NCBI RefSeq assembly: GCF_900142725.1 | Contig: NZ_FRBW01000002.1 | Location: 496,001 to 560,000, forward strand | DNA: 64,000 nucleotides | Direction: 5' to 3' | Origin: Roseibium suaedae | GTDB lineage: Bacteria; Pseudomonadota; Alphaproteobacteria; Rhizobiales; Stappiaceae | Shown here: in pieces, positions 38,964 through 53,805 of the stretch | How the letters are laid out: each line of letters begins with the position of its first letter | Numbering within the stretch: position 1 is the stretch's first letter | Position numbers and translations under genes: made by a program | Notes under the pieces: model-generated | Database searches by the model: none | Seen by the model: the letters and a program-made list of their open reading frames with translations, nothing else | What the model was told of the DNA's origin: nothing

Positions 38964-39029
38964 TGTTAACCATACGAGCCGGCGTTCTGGGGAGTTCGGC
39001 GGCTCACCGGGGAGCAAAAGGAAGTTCAA

Positions 39030-39770
39030 ATGGAGAATGCGCAGCTCATATCGCTATCGCGTCAGATCACGCTCAGGAATCAGATGGACGTCGTCGCCAG
39101 CAACATGGCCAACGTCAATACATCGGGCTTCAAAGCGCAGCGCATGGTCTTCGAAGAAGTCACCATGCCCCTGGCAGATGCGACCGCGTTCAAACGGAGC
39201 GACCAGCGCCTGTCCTATGTCCAGGACTACGGCACTTCGTTCAACATGATGCAGGGGTCCGTCCGGCTGACCGGCAACGAGTTCGACGTAGCCGTTGACG
39301 GCGACGGCTGGTTTGCCATCGAGATGCCCAATGCAGGTGAAGCCTATACCCGTGACGGGTCCTTCAAGATCGACAACACCGGCAAGCTGGTGACGTCTGA
39401 AGGCAAGGCCGTACTGACCGATGGAGGCCCGATCGTTTTCACCCCGCAGGACGGCAAGATCACGATTTCTGACGACGGCACGATCTCGACCGAGCTTGGC
39501 CTGCGCGGCAAGCTGAAGATGGTGTCCTTCGAGACCCCTCAGATGGCCCGGGCGATCGGCGAGAACCTTTATACCTATGAAAACGCAATTCCGATGCGGA
39601 ACGGCAAGGTCATTCAGGGCGGCCTGGAAGGGTCGAACGTCAACGGCATCATCGAAGTGGCTCACATGATCGAGACCACGCGGGCTTACGAGACCGTGAC
39701 CAAGATGATGCAGAAGACCGACGACCTGCGTGAAAACGCCATTTCCAAGCTTGGCAGCCTACGGGCCTGA
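39030..39770 (+). CDS. flgF: Proximal rod protein FlgF
   Basis: A 246-residue rod protein. The N-terminal SLSRQITLRNQMDVVASNMANVNTSGFKAQ and C-terminal VAHMIETTRAYETVTKMMQKTDDLRENAISKLG are the paired rod/hook signatures. The middle contains the FlgG-like DVAVDGDGWFAIEMPNAGEAYTRDGSFKID block. ATG 39030 has AAGGAAG upstream. It begins the operon flgF-flgG-flgA-flgH, preceded by a sigma-54 promoter and CtrA-like sites. Confidence 0.96.
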   Translation: MENAQLISLSRQITLRNQMDVVASNMANVNTSGFKAQRMVFEEVTMPLADATAFKRSDQRLSYVQDYGTSFNMMQGSVRLTGNEFDVAVDGDGWFAIEMPNAGEAYTRDGSFKIDNTGKLVTSEGKAVLTDGGPIVFTPQDGKITISDDGTISTELGLRGKLKMVSFETPQMARAIGENLYTYENAIPMRNGKVIQGGLEGSNVNGIIEVAHMIETTRAYETVTKMMQKTDDLRENAISKLGSLRA

Positions 39771-46701: not shown

Positions 46702-46756
46702 CAGAGTTCACTGGTCATTCAGAAGGAATGGCGTCAGTAAAACAGAAGGAACTCTG
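46702..46756 (+). promoter_or_regulatory. Flagellin 1 leader stem over the ribosome-binding site
   Basis: CAGAGTTC (46702-46709) is perfectly complementary to GAACTCTG (46749-46756), which overlaps the AAGGA ribosome-binding site and ends 2 nt before the ATG. A smaller CATTC/GAATG hairpin (46716-46730) nests inside. The sequence CAGAAGGAA occurs twice (46720 and 46743). The fold could hide the start site from ribosomes. Confidence 0.6.
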
Positions 46757-46758
46757 AC

Positions 46759-47919
46759 ATGGGTGGCATTACCATCTCCAGCGCCGTGCGCTCCAGCCTG
46801 AACTCTCTTCAAGCAACATCTTCTCTGATGAGCTCTGTTCAGGAAAAGCTCTCCACCGGCAAGAAAGTAAACTCTGCTCTCGACAACCCGAACTCGTTCT
46901 TCACCGCGAAGGGCCTCGAAAACCGCGCAAGCGATCTGAGCACCCTCCTCGATGACATGGGCCAGTCGGTGCAGACGCTGAAGGCAGCGGACAAGGGGAT
47001 CGAAGCCATCTCCGATCTGGTCGACGCAGCAAAGGCAAAGGCTAGCCAGGCTCAGCAGTCCTCCAGCCAGTCCGAGCGCAGCAAGTATGCCAAGGAGTAC
47101 AACGAACTCCTGACGCAGATCGAAGACGTTGCCAAGGACAGCGGCTACAAGGGCAAGAACCTGCTCGGCGGCACCGGTAACGACCTGAGCGTGACCTTCA
47201 ACGAAACCGGCTCATCCTCGCTATCGATCTCTTCGGTCGATTACACCGACACCACGTCCTCAACTGGTCTGAATCTTTCCGACCTGACGCTGGCAAGCGA
47301 AGGCACTTCCACCATCGCACTGAACTCCACGGCAACCGGCTCTGCAGCTCTGACTGCAGGCGACCTGCTGACGGACGATGCCGAGTTCACCGCAGGTGAC
47401 ACCCTCACCTTCACGGACTCCAACGGCACCGAAGTCGGCAGCCTCAAGATCACTGACGAAACCACCGTTCAGGATCTGCAGGATGCCCTGGATGATATCG
47501 AAGGTGTCAGCACCGACCTCACCGGCGGCTCCCTGACGACGACCTCCGATTTCAAGCTGACGATCTCGTCCAGTTCGACGGCTTTCAACAGCAACACCGA
47601 TCTGACCACGTCCAGCACGGACTCCTCCTTCGCGAAGGACTCCGACATCGAAAAGACGCTGAAGTCCCTGAAGAGCGCACAGGACACCCTGCGGTCCCAG
47701 GCCTCCACGTTCGGTACCAACCTGTCGATCGTGCAGAACCGTCAGGACTTCACCAACGCGATGATCAACACGCTGGAAGAAGGCGCCGGCAAGCTGACCC
47801 TGGCCGACACCAACGAAGAAGGTGCAAACCTTTTGGCCCTGCAGACCCAGCAGTCTCTGGCCTCCACGTCCCTGTCCCTGGCAGCCCAGGCACAGCAGAA
47901 CGTGCTTCGTCTCTTCTAA
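46759..47919 (+). CDS. Flagellin 1
   Basis: A 386-residue filament subunit. The conserved N-terminal D0/D1 helices read SSAVRSSLNSLQATSSLMSSVQEKLSTGKKVNSALDNPNSFFTAKGLENRASDLSTLL. The C-terminal D1/D0 reads LRSQASTFGTNLSIVQNRQDFTNAMINTLEEGAGKLTLADTNEEGANLLALQTQQSL and ends LRLF. The Ser/Thr-rich surface domain lies at about 150-290. It is the first of four tandem flagellins, each with its own leader and (for 1-3) its own terminator, so the copies are probably expressed separately. From residue ~170 on it is almost identical at DNA level to flagellin 2. Confidence 0.97.
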   Translation: MGGITISSAVRSSLNSLQATSSLMSSVQEKLSTGKKVNSALDNPNSFFTAKGLENRASDLSTLLDDMGQSVQTLKAADKGIEAISDLVDAAKAKASQAQQSSSQSERSKYAKEYNELLTQIEDVAKDSGYKGKNLLGGTGNDLSVTFNETGSSSLSISSVDYTDTTSSTGLNLSDLTLASEGTSTIALNSTATGSAALTAGDLLTDDAEFTAGDTLTFTDSNGTEVGSLKITDETTVQDLQDALDDIEGVSTDLTGGSLTTTSDFKLTISSSSTAFNSNTDLTTSSTDSSFAKDSDIEKTLKSLKSAQDTLRSQASTFGTNLSIVQNRQDFTNAMINTLEEGAGKLTLADTNEEGANLLALQTQQSLASTSLSLAAQAQQNVLRLF

Positions 47920-47970: not shown

Positions 47971-48051
47971 GTTAAGTAATCTGTTAAGGTTAATTCTCAG
48001 TAACCATGTTCATTTACTTGCGATTTACTCGAGAAAATAGATTATCACCCT

Positions 48052-48098
48052 CGAGAACCAGGAAGGTTCTTGTAAATTTTAATTCTAGGAAGGAATTA
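48052..48098 (+). promoter_or_regulatory. Flagellin 2 leader: two AGGAA-loop hairpins
   Basis: Hairpin 1 pairs 48052-48059 with 48065-48072 around loop AGGAA (48060-48064). Hairpin 2 pairs 48080-48086 with 48092-48098 around a second AGGAA loop (48087-48091), which is the ribosome-binding site. The loops start 43 and 16 nt before the ATG, exactly as in flagellin 3. They probably bind a translational regulator (FlbT or CsrA are candidates). Confidence 0.6.
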
Positions 48099-48102
48099 GA
48101 AA

Positions 48103-49263
48103 ATGGGTGGCATCACCATCTCCAGCGCTGTGCGCTCCAGCCTGACCTCTCTTCAGTCAACTTCCAAGTTGATGAGTTCTGTTCAGGAAAAACTTTCTAC
48201 TGGTAAGAAAGTAAACTCTGCTCTCGACAACCCGAATTCTTTCTTCACCGCGAAGGGCCTCGAAAACCGCGCAAGCGATCTGAGCACCCTCCTCGATGAC
48301 ATGGGCCAGTCGGTGCAGACGCTGAAGGCAGCAGACAAGGGTATCGAAGCCATTTCCGATCTGGTCGACGCCGCAAAGGCAAAGGCCAGCCAGGCTCAGC
48401 AGTCCTCCAGCCAGTCCGAGCGTAACAAGTATGCCAAGGAGTACAACGAACTCCTGACGCAGATCGAAGATATCGCAAAGGACAGCGGCTACAAGGGCAA
48501 GAACCTGCTCGGCGGCAATGGTAACGACCTGAGCGTGACCTTCAACGAAGATGGTTCGTCCTCCCTCGCGATCTCGGCAGTTGACTTCACCGACACCACG
48601 TCCTCGACCGGTCTGAATCTTTCCGACCTGACGCTGGCAAGCGAAGGCACTTCCACCATCGCACTGAACTCCACGGCAACCGGCTCTGCAGCTCTGACTG
48701 CAGGCGACCTGCTGACGGACGATGCCGAGTTCACCGCAGGTGACACCCTCACCTTCACGGACTCCAACGGCACCGAAGTCGGCAGCCTCAAGATCACTGA
48801 CGAAACCACCGTTCAGGATCTGCAGGATGCCCTGGATGATATCGAAGGTGTCAGCACCGACCTCACCGGCGGTTCCCTGACGACGACCTCCGATTTCAAG
48901 CTGACGATCTCGTCCAGTTCGACGGCTTTCAACAGCAACGCCGATCTGACCACGTCCAGCACGGACTCCTCCTTCGCGAAGGACTCCGACATCGAAAAGA
49001 CGCTGAAGTCCCTGAAGAAGGCACAGGACACCCTGCGGTCCCAGGCCTCCACGTTCGGTACCAACCTGTCGATCGTGCAGAACCGTCAGGACTTCACCAA
49101 CGCGATGATCAACACGCTGGAAGAAGGCGCCGGCAAGCTGACCCTGGCCGACACCAACGAAGAAGGTGCAAACCTTTTGGCCCTGCAGACCCAGCAGTCT
49201 CTGGCCTCCACGTCCCTGTCCCTGGCAGCTCAGGCAGACCAGAACGTGCTTCGTCTCTTCTAA
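48103..49263 (+). CDS. Flagellin 2
   Basis: A 386-residue flagellin, same length as flagellin 1. The N-terminal third differs from flagellin 1 at scattered, often silent positions (for example LTSLQSTSKLMSS). From 48610 onward the DNA is nearly identical, with runs of 263 and 209 bp without a change. The product ends AAQADQNVLRLF. The sequence pattern points to recent gene conversion. It probably forms part of a mixed filament. The leader carries two AGGAA-loop hairpins and a terminator follows. Confidence 0.97.
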   Translation: MGGITISSAVRSSLTSLQSTSKLMSSVQEKLSTGKKVNSALDNPNSFFTAKGLENRASDLSTLLDDMGQSVQTLKAADKGIEAISDLVDAAKAKASQAQQSSSQSERNKYAKEYNELLTQIEDIAKDSGYKGKNLLGGNGNDLSVTFNEDGSSSLAISAVDFTDTTSSTGLNLSDLTLASEGTSTIALNSTATGSAALTAGDLLTDDAEFTAGDTLTFTDSNGTEVGSLKITDETTVQDLQDALDDIEGVSTDLTGGSLTTTSDFKLTISSSSTAFNSNADLTTSSTDSSFAKDSDIEKTLKSLKKAQDTLRSQASTFGTNLSIVQNRQDFTNAMINTLEEGAGKLTLADTNEEGANLLALQTQQSLASTSLSLAAQADQNVLRLF

Positions 49264-49289
49264 GAGATCTGAAATTCCCAAAACCAAAG

Positions 49290-49319
49290 CGGCGGGTCCT
49301 CGGATCCGCCGTTTTTTTT
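49290..49319 (+). terminator. Terminator after flagellin 2
   Basis: A GC-rich stem CGGCGGGTC / GATCCGCCG is followed by eight T's (49312-49319). Confidence 0.9.
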
Positions 49320-49381
49320 CGCAAGTTTCCATCAACTTGCGCGTTGATTCCCTAACGGAAATTTCCTTTTCCTGGAACGCC

Positions 49382-49397
49382 TTAACCGATTGTTAAC
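49382..49397. promoter_or_regulatory. CtrA-like site upstream of flagellin 3
   Basis: TTAA-N7-TTAAC is an exact consensus match, 108 bp upstream of the start. A second near-match, TTAA-N7-TTAG, lies at 49414-49428. Confidence 0.65.
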
Positions 49398-49455
49398 CCT
49401 ATTTTGGGAGGGTTTAACCATTGGTTAGGGTTAACAGAAGATGATCCTGCCTAAC

Positions 49456-49497
49456 CCGCTCAGGAAGAGCGGCTGAAATTCGGGACCCAGGAAAGGG
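49456..49497 (+). promoter_or_regulatory. Flagellin 3 leader: two AGGAA-loop hairpins
   Basis: Hairpin 1 is CCGCTC-AGGAA-GAGCGG (49456-49472). Hairpin 2 is a short CCC-AGGAAA-GGG (49486-49497) on the ribosome-binding site. Both AGGAA loops start at the same distances (43 and 16 nt) from the start codon as in flagellin 2, although the stems differ in sequence. Confidence 0.6.
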
Positions 49498-49504
49498 AAC
49501 ACTC

Positions 49505-51016
49505 GTGGATAAAGTTACACTCTCCGCAGGCGTGCGGCAGAACCTCCTCACCCTTCAGTCAACCGCAGAGATGATGTCTGGCGTCCAGAACAAGCTGGCG
49601 ACCGGTCTGAAGGTGAACTCCGCTCTCGACAATCCCAACTCGTTCTTCACCGCATCGGGCCTCAATTCCCGCGCGAACGACCTCAGCACCCTGCTGGATG
49701 ACATGGGCCAGTCCCTGCAGACCATCAAGACCGCTGACAAGGGTATTTCGACGATCACTGATCTGGTCGAGAGCGCCAAGGCGAAGGCCAACCAGGCCCT
49801 GCAGACCCAGAGCCAGTTCGAGCGCGCCAAATACGCCAAGCAGTACAACGACCTGCTTGAGCAGATCGAAGACGTAGCGAAGGACTCTTCCTACAAGGGC
49901 AAGAACCTTCTCGCAGGTGACGGCAACGATCTGACCACAATCTTCAACGAAGATGCGACGTCCAAGCAGACCATCACTGCAGTCGATTACACCGACACCA
50001 CCCTGTCGACCGGTCTGAACCTGACCGATCTGGCAGAAGCCAAGGGTGGCGCGAGCTCTTTCCAGCTCGAAGGCGGCAGCTCATCCATCACGCTGTTGGA
50101 TGGCAGCGGCGACGCACTGGGCTCCGGCTCCCTGCTCTCCGACTACACCGGCCTTGAAGTTGGTGACGTGATCGAACTGCGTACCGCAGCTTCCGGCGGC
50201 GGCAGCGTTGTCACGTCCTTGACTGTAGGCGCAACGACCACTGTTGCTGATCTCGTGACCGCGCTGGACGGTGTTGCTGGTGTGAAGGCTGAACTTGACG
50301 AGAAGACCGGCGAGCTGTCGATCACCTCGAACGATGATGTCTACCTCTACAATACCGATGCTGGTGCAGCCACCGCAGCTCCCGCAGATCTGACCTCCGT
50401 TACGAGCGCCAACTTCACTGCGTCCACGCAGCTTCTGACCGGTTCCGCATCTTTCGCCGTTGGCGATGTGCTGACCCTCGAAGACGGCAACGGCTACGAG
50501 CTGGGATCCTTTGAGATCGAAGAAGACTCCACGGTTGAAGACCTCATCGACTTTATCGATGACTTCAATGGCGTGAGCGCCTCCTTCAACACCGGTACGG
50601 GCAAGGTCACGATCGAAAGCGACACCGACCTGACGCTCGCAAGCGACAACAAGAACGACTTCAACGCCAGCGCCTTCACGGCAGATACTGTTGGTGTCAG
50701 CGTTCAAGCAGTCACTGACTCCGGCTTCTCTTCGGACACCAAGATCAACAAGGTTCTGGACCGCCTGAACACGGCTCTGTCCAACCTTCGTTCTCAGGCT
50801 TCTGAATTCGGTACCAACCTTTCCACGGTTGAAATCCGGCAGGACTACACGAAGAACATGATCAACACCCTTCAGGAAGGTGCAGGCAAGCTCACTCTGG
50901 CCGACACCAACGAAGAAGGCGCGAACCTGCTCGCCCTGCAGACCCGGCAGCAGCTCGCATCCACCTCCCTGTCGTTCGCGTCGCAGGCGGACCAGACGGT
51001 GCTGTCCCTCTTCTAA
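49505..51016 (+). CDS. Flagellin 3
   Basis: A 503-residue flagellin with a GTG start (49505) behind AAGGGA. The N-terminal region is VRQNLLTLQSTAEMMSGVQNKLATGLKVNSALDNPNSFFTASGLNSRANDLS; the C-terminal region ends TRQQLASTSLSFASQADQTVLSLF. The variable surface domain is about 120 residues longer than in flagellins 1 and 2. It contains several flagellin-hook-IN-like beta motifs (VGDVIELRTAASGGGSVVTSLTVGATTTVADLVTALDGVAGV). An upstream CtrA-like site suggests cell-cycle timing separate from flagellins 1 and 2. Confidence 0.97.
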   Translation: MDKVTLSAGVRQNLLTLQSTAEMMSGVQNKLATGLKVNSALDNPNSFFTASGLNSRANDLSTLLDDMGQSLQTIKTADKGISTITDLVESAKAKANQALQTQSQFERAKYAKQYNDLLEQIEDVAKDSSYKGKNLLAGDGNDLTTIFNEDATSKQTITAVDYTDTTLSTGLNLTDLAEAKGGASSFQLEGGSSSITLLDGSGDALGSGSLLSDYTGLEVGDVIELRTAASGGGSVVTSLTVGATTTVADLVTALDGVAGVKAELDEKTGELSITSNDDVYLYNTDAGAATAAPADLTSVTSANFTASTQLLTGSASFAVGDVLTLEDGNGYELGSFEIEEDSTVEDLIDFIDDFNGVSASFNTGTGKVTIESDTDLTLASDNKNDFNASAFTADTVGVSVQAVTDSGFSSDTKINKVLDRLNTALSNLRSQASEFGTNLSTVEIRQDYTKNMINTLQEGAGKLTLADTNEEGANLLALQTRQQLASTSLSFASQADQTVLSLF

Positions 51017-51459: not shown

Positions 51460-52965
51460 ATGAGCGATATCGTCCTTTCCAGCGCCGTTCGCGACAACCT
51501 TCTGTCGCTTAAGAACACAGCCAAGCTCCAGTCCACGACGCAGAACCGTCTGGCTACGGGTCTGAAAGTGAACTCGGCGCTCGACAATCCAAACTCATTC
51601 TTCACTGCAGCAGGGCTTAACGACCGCGCCAGTGATCTGACCAACCTGCTCGACAACATGGGCCAGGCTGTTCAGACCATCAAGGCAGCGGACAAGGGCA
51701 TCACCAGCATCACAAAGCTTGTGGAATCCGCCAAGGCAATCGCCAACCAGGCGCTTCAGACCCAAAGCGAGTTTCAGCGCAAGACATACGCCGAACAGTA
51801 CAACGAGATCCTGGAGCAGATCGAAGATCTTGCACGCGACTCCGACTACAAGGGCAAGAACCTTCTCGCCGGTGCCGGCAACGAGCTCCAGGTCATCTTC
51901 AACGAAGACAGCACCTCGAACCTGACCGTCCATCCGGTTGACTACACGGACACGAGCCTTTCCACGGGTCTGTCGCTTTCGGATCTCGGTACAGGAGCAG
52001 GAGCAACCTCTGCCTTTACCCTTGCTGCCGGTTCGACCACCATTGATCTGACCGGGCTTCAGGCCTCTTCCAAGCTGACGGACCTTGCCTCCTGGGCGGA
52101 CGGTGATGTCGTGACAGTTTCGGACGGCACCACATCCAAGACCTTCACGGTCGGATCCGGCACCGGAGAGATCGAAACGGTGCAGGATTACATCAACGCC
52201 CTCAATGACCTTCAGGGCGTGAAGGCAAGCTTCGACGAAACCACGGACCAGATCACCATTGTCTCCGGCATGGATCCTGCCGTGACACTCAGCGTTTCCA
52301 AGGACAACGCAGGCGGCGGTACGGCAACGAACGGCGGCGTTGGCACCGGCACGACGACCTTGACCACGACCGTCATGACCGCAGCGGCTTCCCTTTCGGA
52401 TTCAGGCGGTTTCAAGGTTGGCGACACGCTCTACATCACCGATGGCAATGGCTATGAAGCAGCCTCTCTCGAAATCGACGAAGACACCACTGTCAGTGAC
52501 CTTGTCAGCCTGATCAAGGGCGTCAAAGGCCTTGATGCAAACTTTGCCTCAGGCAGCGTCAGCCTGATCGGTGATGTGTCCTTTGACATCACGAGCAGCA
52601 ACAAGGACTTCAACATTGACCGGCTTGCCACGACCGACGGCACCGTCAAGCTGACCGCAACAGACTCCGACTTCGCGGCCGACACGGACATCGAGCGCAT
52701 CCTTCAGTCGATCAATGCGGCCCTCGACGAACTGCGGTCCAGCGCCGGAAACCTGGGCACCAGCCTGTCCACCGTGCAGATCAGAACCGACTTCACCAGT
52801 GAGTTGATCAACACTCTGGAAGTGGGCGCTGGCGCACTGACGATTGCGGACATGAACGAGGAAGGGGCGAACATGCTGGCTCTCCAGACCCGGCAGCAGC
52901 TCTCGTCCACAGCCCTGTCCCTCGCCAACCAGGCAGAACAGAGCGTTCTGAGCCTCTTCGGTTAA
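51460..52965 (+). CDS. Flagellin 4
   Basis: A 501-residue flagellin, the most diverged of the four. It starts MSDIVLSSAVRDNLLSLKNTAKLQSTTQNRLATGLKVNSALDNPNSFFTAAGLNDRASDLTNLLDNMG and ends TRQQLSSTALSLANQAEQSVLSLFG, with one residue past the usual final Phe. The surface domain has Gly/Thr-rich strands and FlgK/hook-IN-like units. Its ribosome-binding site is weak and it lacks the AGGAA-loop leader of flagellins 2 and 3, suggesting different control. No clear terminator separates it from flbT, 89 bp downstream. Confidence 0.96.
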   Translation: MSDIVLSSAVRDNLLSLKNTAKLQSTTQNRLATGLKVNSALDNPNSFFTAAGLNDRASDLTNLLDNMGQAVQTIKAADKGITSITKLVESAKAIANQALQTQSEFQRKTYAEQYNEILEQIEDLARDSDYKGKNLLAGAGNELQVIFNEDSTSNLTVHPVDYTDTSLSTGLSLSDLGTGAGATSAFTLAAGSTTIDLTGLQASSKLTDLASWADGDVVTVSDGTTSKTFTVGSGTGEIETVQDYINALNDLQGVKASFDETTDQITIVSGMDPAVTLSVSKDNAGGGTATNGGVGTGTTTLTTTVMTAAASLSDSGGFKVGDTLYITDGNGYEAASLEIDEDTTVSDLVSLIKGVKGLDANFASGSVSLIGDVSFDITSSNKDFNIDRLATTDGTVKLTATDSDFAADTDIERILQSINAALDELRSSAGNLGTSLSTVQIRTDFTSELINTLEVGAGALTIADMNEEGANMLALQTRQQLSSTALSLANQAEQSVLSLFG

Positions 52966-53054: not shown

Positions 53055-53468
53055 ATGGCGCTCAAGGTCGAGTTGAAACCAGGTGAGCGGATTATCATTG
53101 GCGATTCAGTCATCACGAATGACAGCCAGCGAACCCGTCTTTTCATCGAAGGCAAGGCGCCCATACTCAGGGAAAAGGACATCCTCACCCCAGCTACGGC
53201 GAATACACCAGCCAAACGCGTCTATCTCGCGGTTCAGCTCATGTATCTCTCCAGCGACGTTGATAAGGTTCAGGAGAACTACTTCACCCTAGTAAATGAC
53301 ATCGTGAAGGCAGCGCCGAGCACCATTCCATACGTTACACGTATTAGTAATGCGATCATCTCGGGCGCCTTCTACAAGGCCCTAAAAGAAGCACGAAAGC
53401 TCATCGATTACGAGAGGACGCTGATCGGTCATGTACAAGCAGGCAGCGCAGGCATATCAGAAGACTAG
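53055..53468 (+). CDS. flbT: Flagellin mRNA regulator FlbT
   Basis: A 137-residue protein with the FlbT pattern VELKPGERIIIGDSVITNDSQRTRLFIEGKAPILREKDIL and VYLAVQLMYLSSDVDKVQENYFTLVNDIVKAAP. In Caulobacter FlbT binds the leader of flagellin fljK mRNA and promotes its decay when the hook is incomplete; in Brucella it acts positively. ATG 53055 has GGAGG upstream. It overlaps flaF by 38 nt. Its likely targets are the flagellin leaders just upstream. Confidence 0.95.
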   Translation: MALKVELKPGERIIIGDSVITNDSQRTRLFIEGKAPILREKDILTPATANTPAKRVYLAVQLMYLSSDVDKVQENYFTLVNDIVKAAPSTIPYVTRISNAIISGAFYKALKEARKLIDYERTLIGHVQAGSAGISED

Positions 53469-53805
53469 CCAGGTAGCGGTTTCGCCTCGTGAACTCGAAG
53501 CGACGCTACTCATGAAAGCTGCGGCACGCCTCCAGTTGATCAAGGACGAATGGGACGACATGTCCTTCGCCGAGAAAGATGAAGCGCTGACCTACAATCG
53601 CAAGCTCTGGACGGTCCTCGTGACCTCTGCGACCAGCGACGAGAACCCCCTCCCCCAGGATGTGAAGAACAATCTGGCGACCCTTGGCGTTTTCGTCTTC
53701 AAGCAGACCATGGCCGTTATGATGGATCCCCAGCCGGAAAAACTCGGCACCCTGATCTCCATCAACCGCAACATCGCCGAAGGGCTGCGGGCACGGGCCG
53801 AATAA
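53431..53805 (+). CDS. flaF: Flagellar biosynthesis regulator FlaF
   Basis: A 124-residue helical protein with the FlaF signatures YKQAAQAYQKTSQVAVSPRELEATLLMKAAARLQ and NRKLWTVLVTSATSDENPLPQDVKNNLATLGVFVFKQT. FlaF is required for flagellin translation or secretion and works opposite FlbT in Caulobacter. Its start lies within flbT, which extends 38 nt further. This long overlap implies coupled translation and a fixed FlbT:FlaF ratio. A terminator follows. Confidence 0.95.
   Translation: MYKQAAQAYQKTSQVAVSPRELEATLLMKAAARLQLIKDEWDDMSFAEKDEALTYNRKLWTVLVTSATSDENPLPQDVKNNLATLGVFVFKQTMAVMMDPQPEKLGTLISINRNIAEGLRARAE

Follow-up and report, generated by a model that had tools for sequence, protein, structure and literature searches.

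FlbT of Caulobacter reportedly binds a flagellin 5' UTR, a result that is said to go back to Anderson and Gober in 2000. Passages in two published accounts describe FlbT as binding Caulobacter flagellin 5' UTRs, with translation blocked or decay promoted; the same passages give no recognition motif, call the mechanism unresolved, and describe the FlbT of Brucella as an activator, so that control may not have the same sign throughout (PMC4347634, PMC3930126). The part of a further account that deals with this system states that Caulobacter FlbT interacts with only one flagellin, FljJ, and that secretion of FljJ lifts the repression of the other five (PMC7591256). FlbT and FlaF have also been called a possible analogous system to that of CsrA, in a passage of a fourth paper (PMC4894983).

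We analysed a stretch of 64,000 nucleotides (the window) from the marine bacterium Roseibium suaedae, whose genome is 99.96% complete. Four flagellin genes lie here together with flbT and flaF, inside one flagellar cluster. The genes and leader structures, all on the plus strand and with loop positions given relative to the start codon, are as follows.

46702 to 46756, plus strand: outer stem of the flagellin 1 leader, CAGAGTTC (46702-46709) with GAACTCTG (46749-46756), enclosing hairpin 1
46714 to 46732, plus strand: hairpin 1 of the flagellin 1 leader, GTCATTC-AGAAG-GAATGGC
46759 to 47919, plus strand: flagellin 1 (PF00669, PF00700)
48054 to 48070, plus strand: hairpin 1 of the flagellin 2 leader, AGAACC (48054-48059)-AGGAA (48060-48064)-GGTTCT (48065-48070), loop at -43
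48077 to 48101, plus strand: hairpin 2 of the flagellin 2 leader, over the ribosome-binding site, TAATTCT-AGGAA (48087-48091)-GGAATTA, loop at -16
48103 to 49263, plus strand: flagellin 2
49456 to 49472, plus strand: hairpin 1 of the flagellin 3 leader, CCGCTC (49456-49461)-AGGAA (49462-49466)-GAGCGG (49467-49472), loop at -43
49486 to 49497, plus strand: Shine-Dalgarno (SD) copy in the flagellin 3 leader, CCC-AGGAAA (49489-49494)-GGG, loop at -16
49505 to 51016, plus strand: flagellin 3, GTG start
51460 to 52965, plus strand: flagellin 4, adjoining flbT, its leader without the hairpin element
53055 to 53468, plus strand: flbT (PF07378, 3e-44), candidate reader of the hairpins
53431 to 53805, plus strand: flaF (PF07309, 2.9e-34)

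The coordinates confirm the original prediction that AGGAA loops lie at exactly -43 and -16 in the leaders of flagellins 2 and 3. The 6-bp first stems of the two leaders are completely different in sequence yet pair, and their interpretation as compensatory change was upheld by covariation in relatives (below). The closing pair of hairpin 2 of flagellin 2 is U-G. Two features of the locus had been overlooked: the leader of flagellin 1 carries a variant hairpin, and the hairpin element is missing from that of flagellin 4 (start 51460). In flagellin 1 the outer stem pairs over the SD sequence AAGGAA, and relatives are arranged alike. The element was also absent from the leader of the flagellin that belongs to the second flagellar system of this genome. 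When folding energies were compared with those of shuffled sequences, z was -2.90 for flagellin 1, -2.55 for flagellin 2 and 0.07 for flagellin 3. Energy alone is therefore no proof of the element, since folding of the flagellin 3 leader does not surpass that of shuffles; comparison between genomes proves it.

The coding DNA of flagellins 1 (46759-47919) and 2 (48103-49263) is nearly identical over most of its length, and the leaders are wholly different. This likeness looks like gene conversion, or like a recent duplication in which the leaders were held apart. The closest named matches of FlbT were from R. limicola and R. litorale. A weak match to suhB/mmgR (49248-49326, plus strand; 32 bits against a cut-off of 41) covers the end of flagellin 2 and its terminator; it was rejected as a member of that family, and is probably the flagellin 2 terminator resembling an sRNA terminator.

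We examined the element in 301 distinct flagellin leaders, which came from Roseibium and other Rhizobiales and from a sample of the whole class. CAGRANG motifs at -25 or further upstream occurred at 0.60 per leader, compared to 0.053 per 65 nt elsewhere. These 181 motifs peaked at -42 and lay mostly between -46 and -36, so that hairpin 1 keeps a narrow, though not a fixed, spacing. Stems of at least 4 bp flanked 82% of the leader motifs, as against 7.2% of the 4310 motifs found elsewhere in the same loci, and motifs were selected by their seven letters only. When ANRAN-pentaloop hairpins were counted without such selection, 94 were found in Roseibium (2.4 expected), 73 in other Rhizobiales (2.5 expected) and 21 in the class sample (1.1 expected). 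In Rhizobiales A, G and A prevail at loop positions 1, 2 and 4, either G or A stands at position 3, and position 5 is the freest.

Covariation was tested with 166 motif-anchored sequences, picked by loop and position and not by pairing, on a tree of the flagellin proteins, with columns simulated independently 200 times. In hairpin 1, stem pairs 2 to 6 exceeded every null value and were the five highest among all column pairs; covariation across related leaders, on which the original prediction had staked its claim, is thus present. No signal was seen in these sequences for pairs 7 to 9, and the stem is consequently taken to be 6 bp long. Among 51 diverse leaders, 86.7% of the pairs were formed (62.4% in shuffles) with 91 double changes (38 in shuffles), and RNAalifold recovered hairpin 1 when no structure was supplied. 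The situation at the SD sequence was different. The copy there is conserved among relatives as CCYAGRA..GG, its pairing register varies, and neither the column-pair test nor RNAalifold gave clear covariation for hairpin 2. The 'second hairpin' therefore rests on conserved sequence and not on compensatory change. Taken together, conservation, covariation and placement at the SD sequence bear out a conserved RNA element positioned for translational control of flagellins. The leader element is real, conserved and covarying: a new RNA motif within a type of regulation already known. No Rfam family covered the flagellin leaders, and the flg-Rhizobiales RNA (RF01736) did not match them at its gathering score. 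A sub-threshold copy of that RNA (38975-39075, plus strand; 35.6 bits against a cut-off of 55) sits ahead of flgF (39030) and runs into its start, and similar weak matches were seen in two Roseibium relatives and in one other genome (G030).

A covariance model was built from 51 leaders, and in a search of the whole genome only 48051-48102 and 49453-49504, the leaders of flagellins 2 and 3, matched at E<0.01; the training set included the flagellin 2 leader and a close orthologue of that of flagellin 3. A third match (position 916154 of contig C5, E 0.034) was rejected as a further target, with no recognisable flagellar gene behind it. Across Roseibium, the element was present in 88 of 97 leaders of flagellins 1-3 versus none of the 36 distinct leaders of the flbT-adjacent flagellin 4. 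The flbT clusters of the second flagellar system in some Roseibium had no flagellin in the stretches examined. The element is spread through Rhizobiales (Pannonibacter, Pleomorphomonas, Devosia, Pseudovibrio and others), and three tandem copies of the motif per leader, counting the SD copy, were found in two leaders of Pseudovibrio and one of Methylobrevis. Leaders of fljK type in Caulobacter and related genera carry two tandem AAAAN hairpins (GAGC-AAAAT-GCTC and CCGACGTC-AAAAC-GACGTCGG), and within the genus Caulobacter such paired hairpins numbered 34 versus 0.54 in shuffles. We take these leaders to be of fljK type from a best identity of 92% to an approximate FljK query. A divergent flagellin beside fljK in Caulobacteraceae is without the usual tandem pair, and in some Caulobacter species FljJ-like leaders retain a single altered hairpin.

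FlbT is encoded in 52 of 61 relatives as well as in the window. Our class sample comprised 172 genomes, of which 107 were flagellin-bearing alphaproteobacteria; FlbT was found in 56 of these, CsrA in 32, neither in 20, and both in one genome compared to 16.7 expected (p=2e-12, a value that ignores shared ancestry). In genomes with FlbT, 5 of 20 leaders lying away from flbT had a clear hairpin, and genomes with neither protein had one ANRAN hairpin in 14 flagellin leaders. Similar hairpins numbered 15 in 26 flagellin leaders of csrA-bearing alphaproteobacteria, where loops were of the CAGGA(T/A)G type and some were AUGAA or AAGAA, indicating that hairpins of this type are not confined to FlbT genomes. 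The near-total mutual exclusion and the likeness of the hairpins in the two groups suggest that one regulator replaced the other.

FlbT is most likely the reader of the leader hairpins, as binding is inferred from the presence of its gene downstream, the AAAAN hairpins in fljK leaders of Caulobacter and the split between 88 of 97 and none of 36 leaders. The naming of FlbT as a candidate binder in the original prediction is supported by the downstream gene and by the same kind of element in Caulobacter leaders of fljK type. The near absence of ANRAN hairpins from genomes with neither protein, the restriction of covariance-model matches to flagellin leaders and the lack of the element in the second flagellar system also speak for FlbT. 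Against it count the similar hairpins of csrA genomes, the small share of leaders away from flbT with a clear hairpin in FlbT genomes, the activator described in Brucella, the missing covariation of hairpin 2 and the altered hairpin of FljJ-like leaders. We consider it probable that the cis-acting loops and the SD copy are together read by FlbT, which would block flagellin translation. The element consists of one AGRAN-pentaloop stem-loop (two in some relatives) with a closing C-G pair, some 42 nt ahead of the start codon, and of the loop motif repeated as CCYAGRA..GG at the SD sequence. FlbT could hold the upstream hairpin as an anchor along with the copy at the SD sequence, which would keep ribosomes away and destabilise the mRNA for as long as the hook-basal body is unfinished. 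The block would then be lifted by FlaF and by secretion of a regulatory flagellin. With no element in its leader, flagellin 4 would be beyond the control of FlbT, and it may serve as an FljJ-like co-repressor, a role suggested by the fit between the split among leaders and the reported action of FlbT and FljJ on the other five flagellins. FlaF is proposed to be an antagonist or a chaperone, and its weak similarity to FliS (6.7e-5) fits the role of antagonist.

Other explanations for the loops were considered. CsrA/RsmA binds GGA in loops and blocks translation, as on Campylobacter or Bacillus flagellin mRNAs, and the CAGGANG loop resembles CsrA sites, with two sites of which one overlaps the SD sequence. 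Such hairpins occur on flagellin leaders of csrA-bearing alphaproteobacteria, and a GGA pentaloop can bind a protein of the RsmA family (PMC3791407). However, a search for CsrA (PF02599) gave no match in this genome or in 30 relatives, with E. coli, B. subtilis and T. maritima positive as controls, and the GGA is not conserved, loops of AGAAA, AGAAC and AGAAT being common in Rhizobiales and AAAAN in Caulobacteraceae. The resemblance to CsrA/RsmA targets pointed out in the original prediction is thus real, and csrA genomes are alike in this respect, but CsrA was rejected as the binder in this organism, a rejection that stands unless an unrecognised CsrA exists; we regard control by CsrA here as very improbable. 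The leaders could instead act independently of protein by folding over the SD sequence, in the manner of an RNA thermometer or a standby site, in which case the purines of the loops would be the SD sequence and its echo. The leaders of flagellins 1 and 2 do fold well over the SD sequence, but that of flagellin 3 does not exceed shuffles. Moreover, the upstream hairpin leaves the SD sequence out and yet combines a near-invariant loop with a freely changing stem, a signature which argues that the loop is read by a partner, and we find purely protein-independent folding unlikely. The partner could be another trans-acting factor, for instance an RNase, or an antisense sRNA that base-pairs with the AGGAA loops, and a CU-rich sRNA could indeed pair with unpaired purine loops. 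The identity of the loop nevertheless drifts by clade (AGRAN, AAAAN) while its size is fixed, and the leaders have no match to an Rfam family, which makes such a factor quite unlikely.

A further possibility extends reading by FlbT rather than competing with it, namely that FlbT is a very divergent CsrA-type protein. Its five N-terminal strands would read loops as CsrA does, a C-terminal helical bundle would sense flagellin, and FlbT would have taken the place of CsrA in most flagellated alphaproteobacteria, with the hairpins left as they were. A profile of 172 FlbT sequences covered CsrA residues 2-45 with a score of 22.9-27.3 (P 1e-3 to 1e-4), column shuffles reached 17.2 and 20.4, and CsrA scored best in comparison with 61 unrelated families, the next reaching 20.6. 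The conserved start of FlbT (LKVELKPGERIIIGDSV...APILREKDI) can be aligned on that of CsrA (LYLTRKVGESVIINDNI...ASVLRREIY). CsrA is built of strands b1-b5 followed by a helix, and AlphaFold2 models of FlbT (pLDDT 88 and 86) place strands at residues 2-7, 12-15, 18-21, 27-32 and 37-39 and then a helix, in the order of CsrA. The invariant FlbT blocks KVELKPGE and PILREKDI fall on the RNA-holding strands 1 and 5 of CsrA, and the exclusive distribution of the two proteins also favours kinship. R39 of FlbT aligns with Arg44 of CsrA, which is essential for RNA binding in RsmA (PMC3791407), but the second type of FlbT does not conserve R39. Against kinship, the hhalign probability was only 22-58%, a shallow profile of Rhizobiales FlbT alone aligned elsewhere, the FlbT sequence did not match PF02599 in Pfam at E up to 10, and a sequence search of the PDB gave no CsrA and only weak, unrelated helical matches. 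CsrA was also missing from the Foldseek candidates for the N-terminal model, the best being TRAP (Z 3.4, rmsd 1.8 over 40 residues); a monomer model was used, which would not reproduce CsrA because CsrA is a strand-swapped dimer. TRAP was rejected as kin, as it showed no profile similarity (score 12). Residues 50-137 of FlbT (coding DNA of the whole protein 53055-53465) are predicted to form a four-helix bundle, and the fold list of the whole model was filled by bundles of this kind, FliS-flagellin complexes among them at a Z of about 7; this likeness is not decisive and may simply reflect a common arrangement. On balance, we regard FlbT as a CsrA-type protein as a tentative possibility. The fuller proposal, that FlbT joins a CsrA-superfamily domain to a flagellin-sensing bundle and displaced CsrA, and that the FlbT/FlaF/FljJ and CsrA/FliW/flagellin circuits are homologous, is slightly more doubtful. 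We found no claim of homology in the open literature on FlbT and CsrA, and such kinship, if true, would unify two textbook systems.

With FlbT as the probable reader, an element that covaries and has a well-defined loop would be the missing cis half of FlbT control, known since 2000, and it opens the mechanism of FlbT to tests with single mutants of loop and stem. The open-access papers searched gave no account of the hairpin motif, part of which may be described in the binding study of 2000. Among known systems, the flg-Rhizobiales RNA (RF01736) is likewise a conserved leader RNA of Rhizobiales flagellar genes, but differs in structure and place, its copy in the window lying before flgF and not in the flagellin leaders. 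The target hairpins of CsrA/RsmA (ANGGAN, flaA/hag) share the purine loop, the short hairpin, two sites, overlap with the SD sequence and a flagellin mRNA; unlike these, the element occurs in a Roseibium genome without csrA, and GGA is met in flagellins 2 and 3 but is not required across the family. In comparison with the FlbT system of Caulobacter crescentus, the loops of Roseibium are AGRAN instead of AAAAN, one copy sits directly on the SD sequence, and binding in Roseibium is what we infer; the two systems share the flagellin leaders, FlbT and FlaF alongside, an expected block of translation and tandem ANRAN hairpins.
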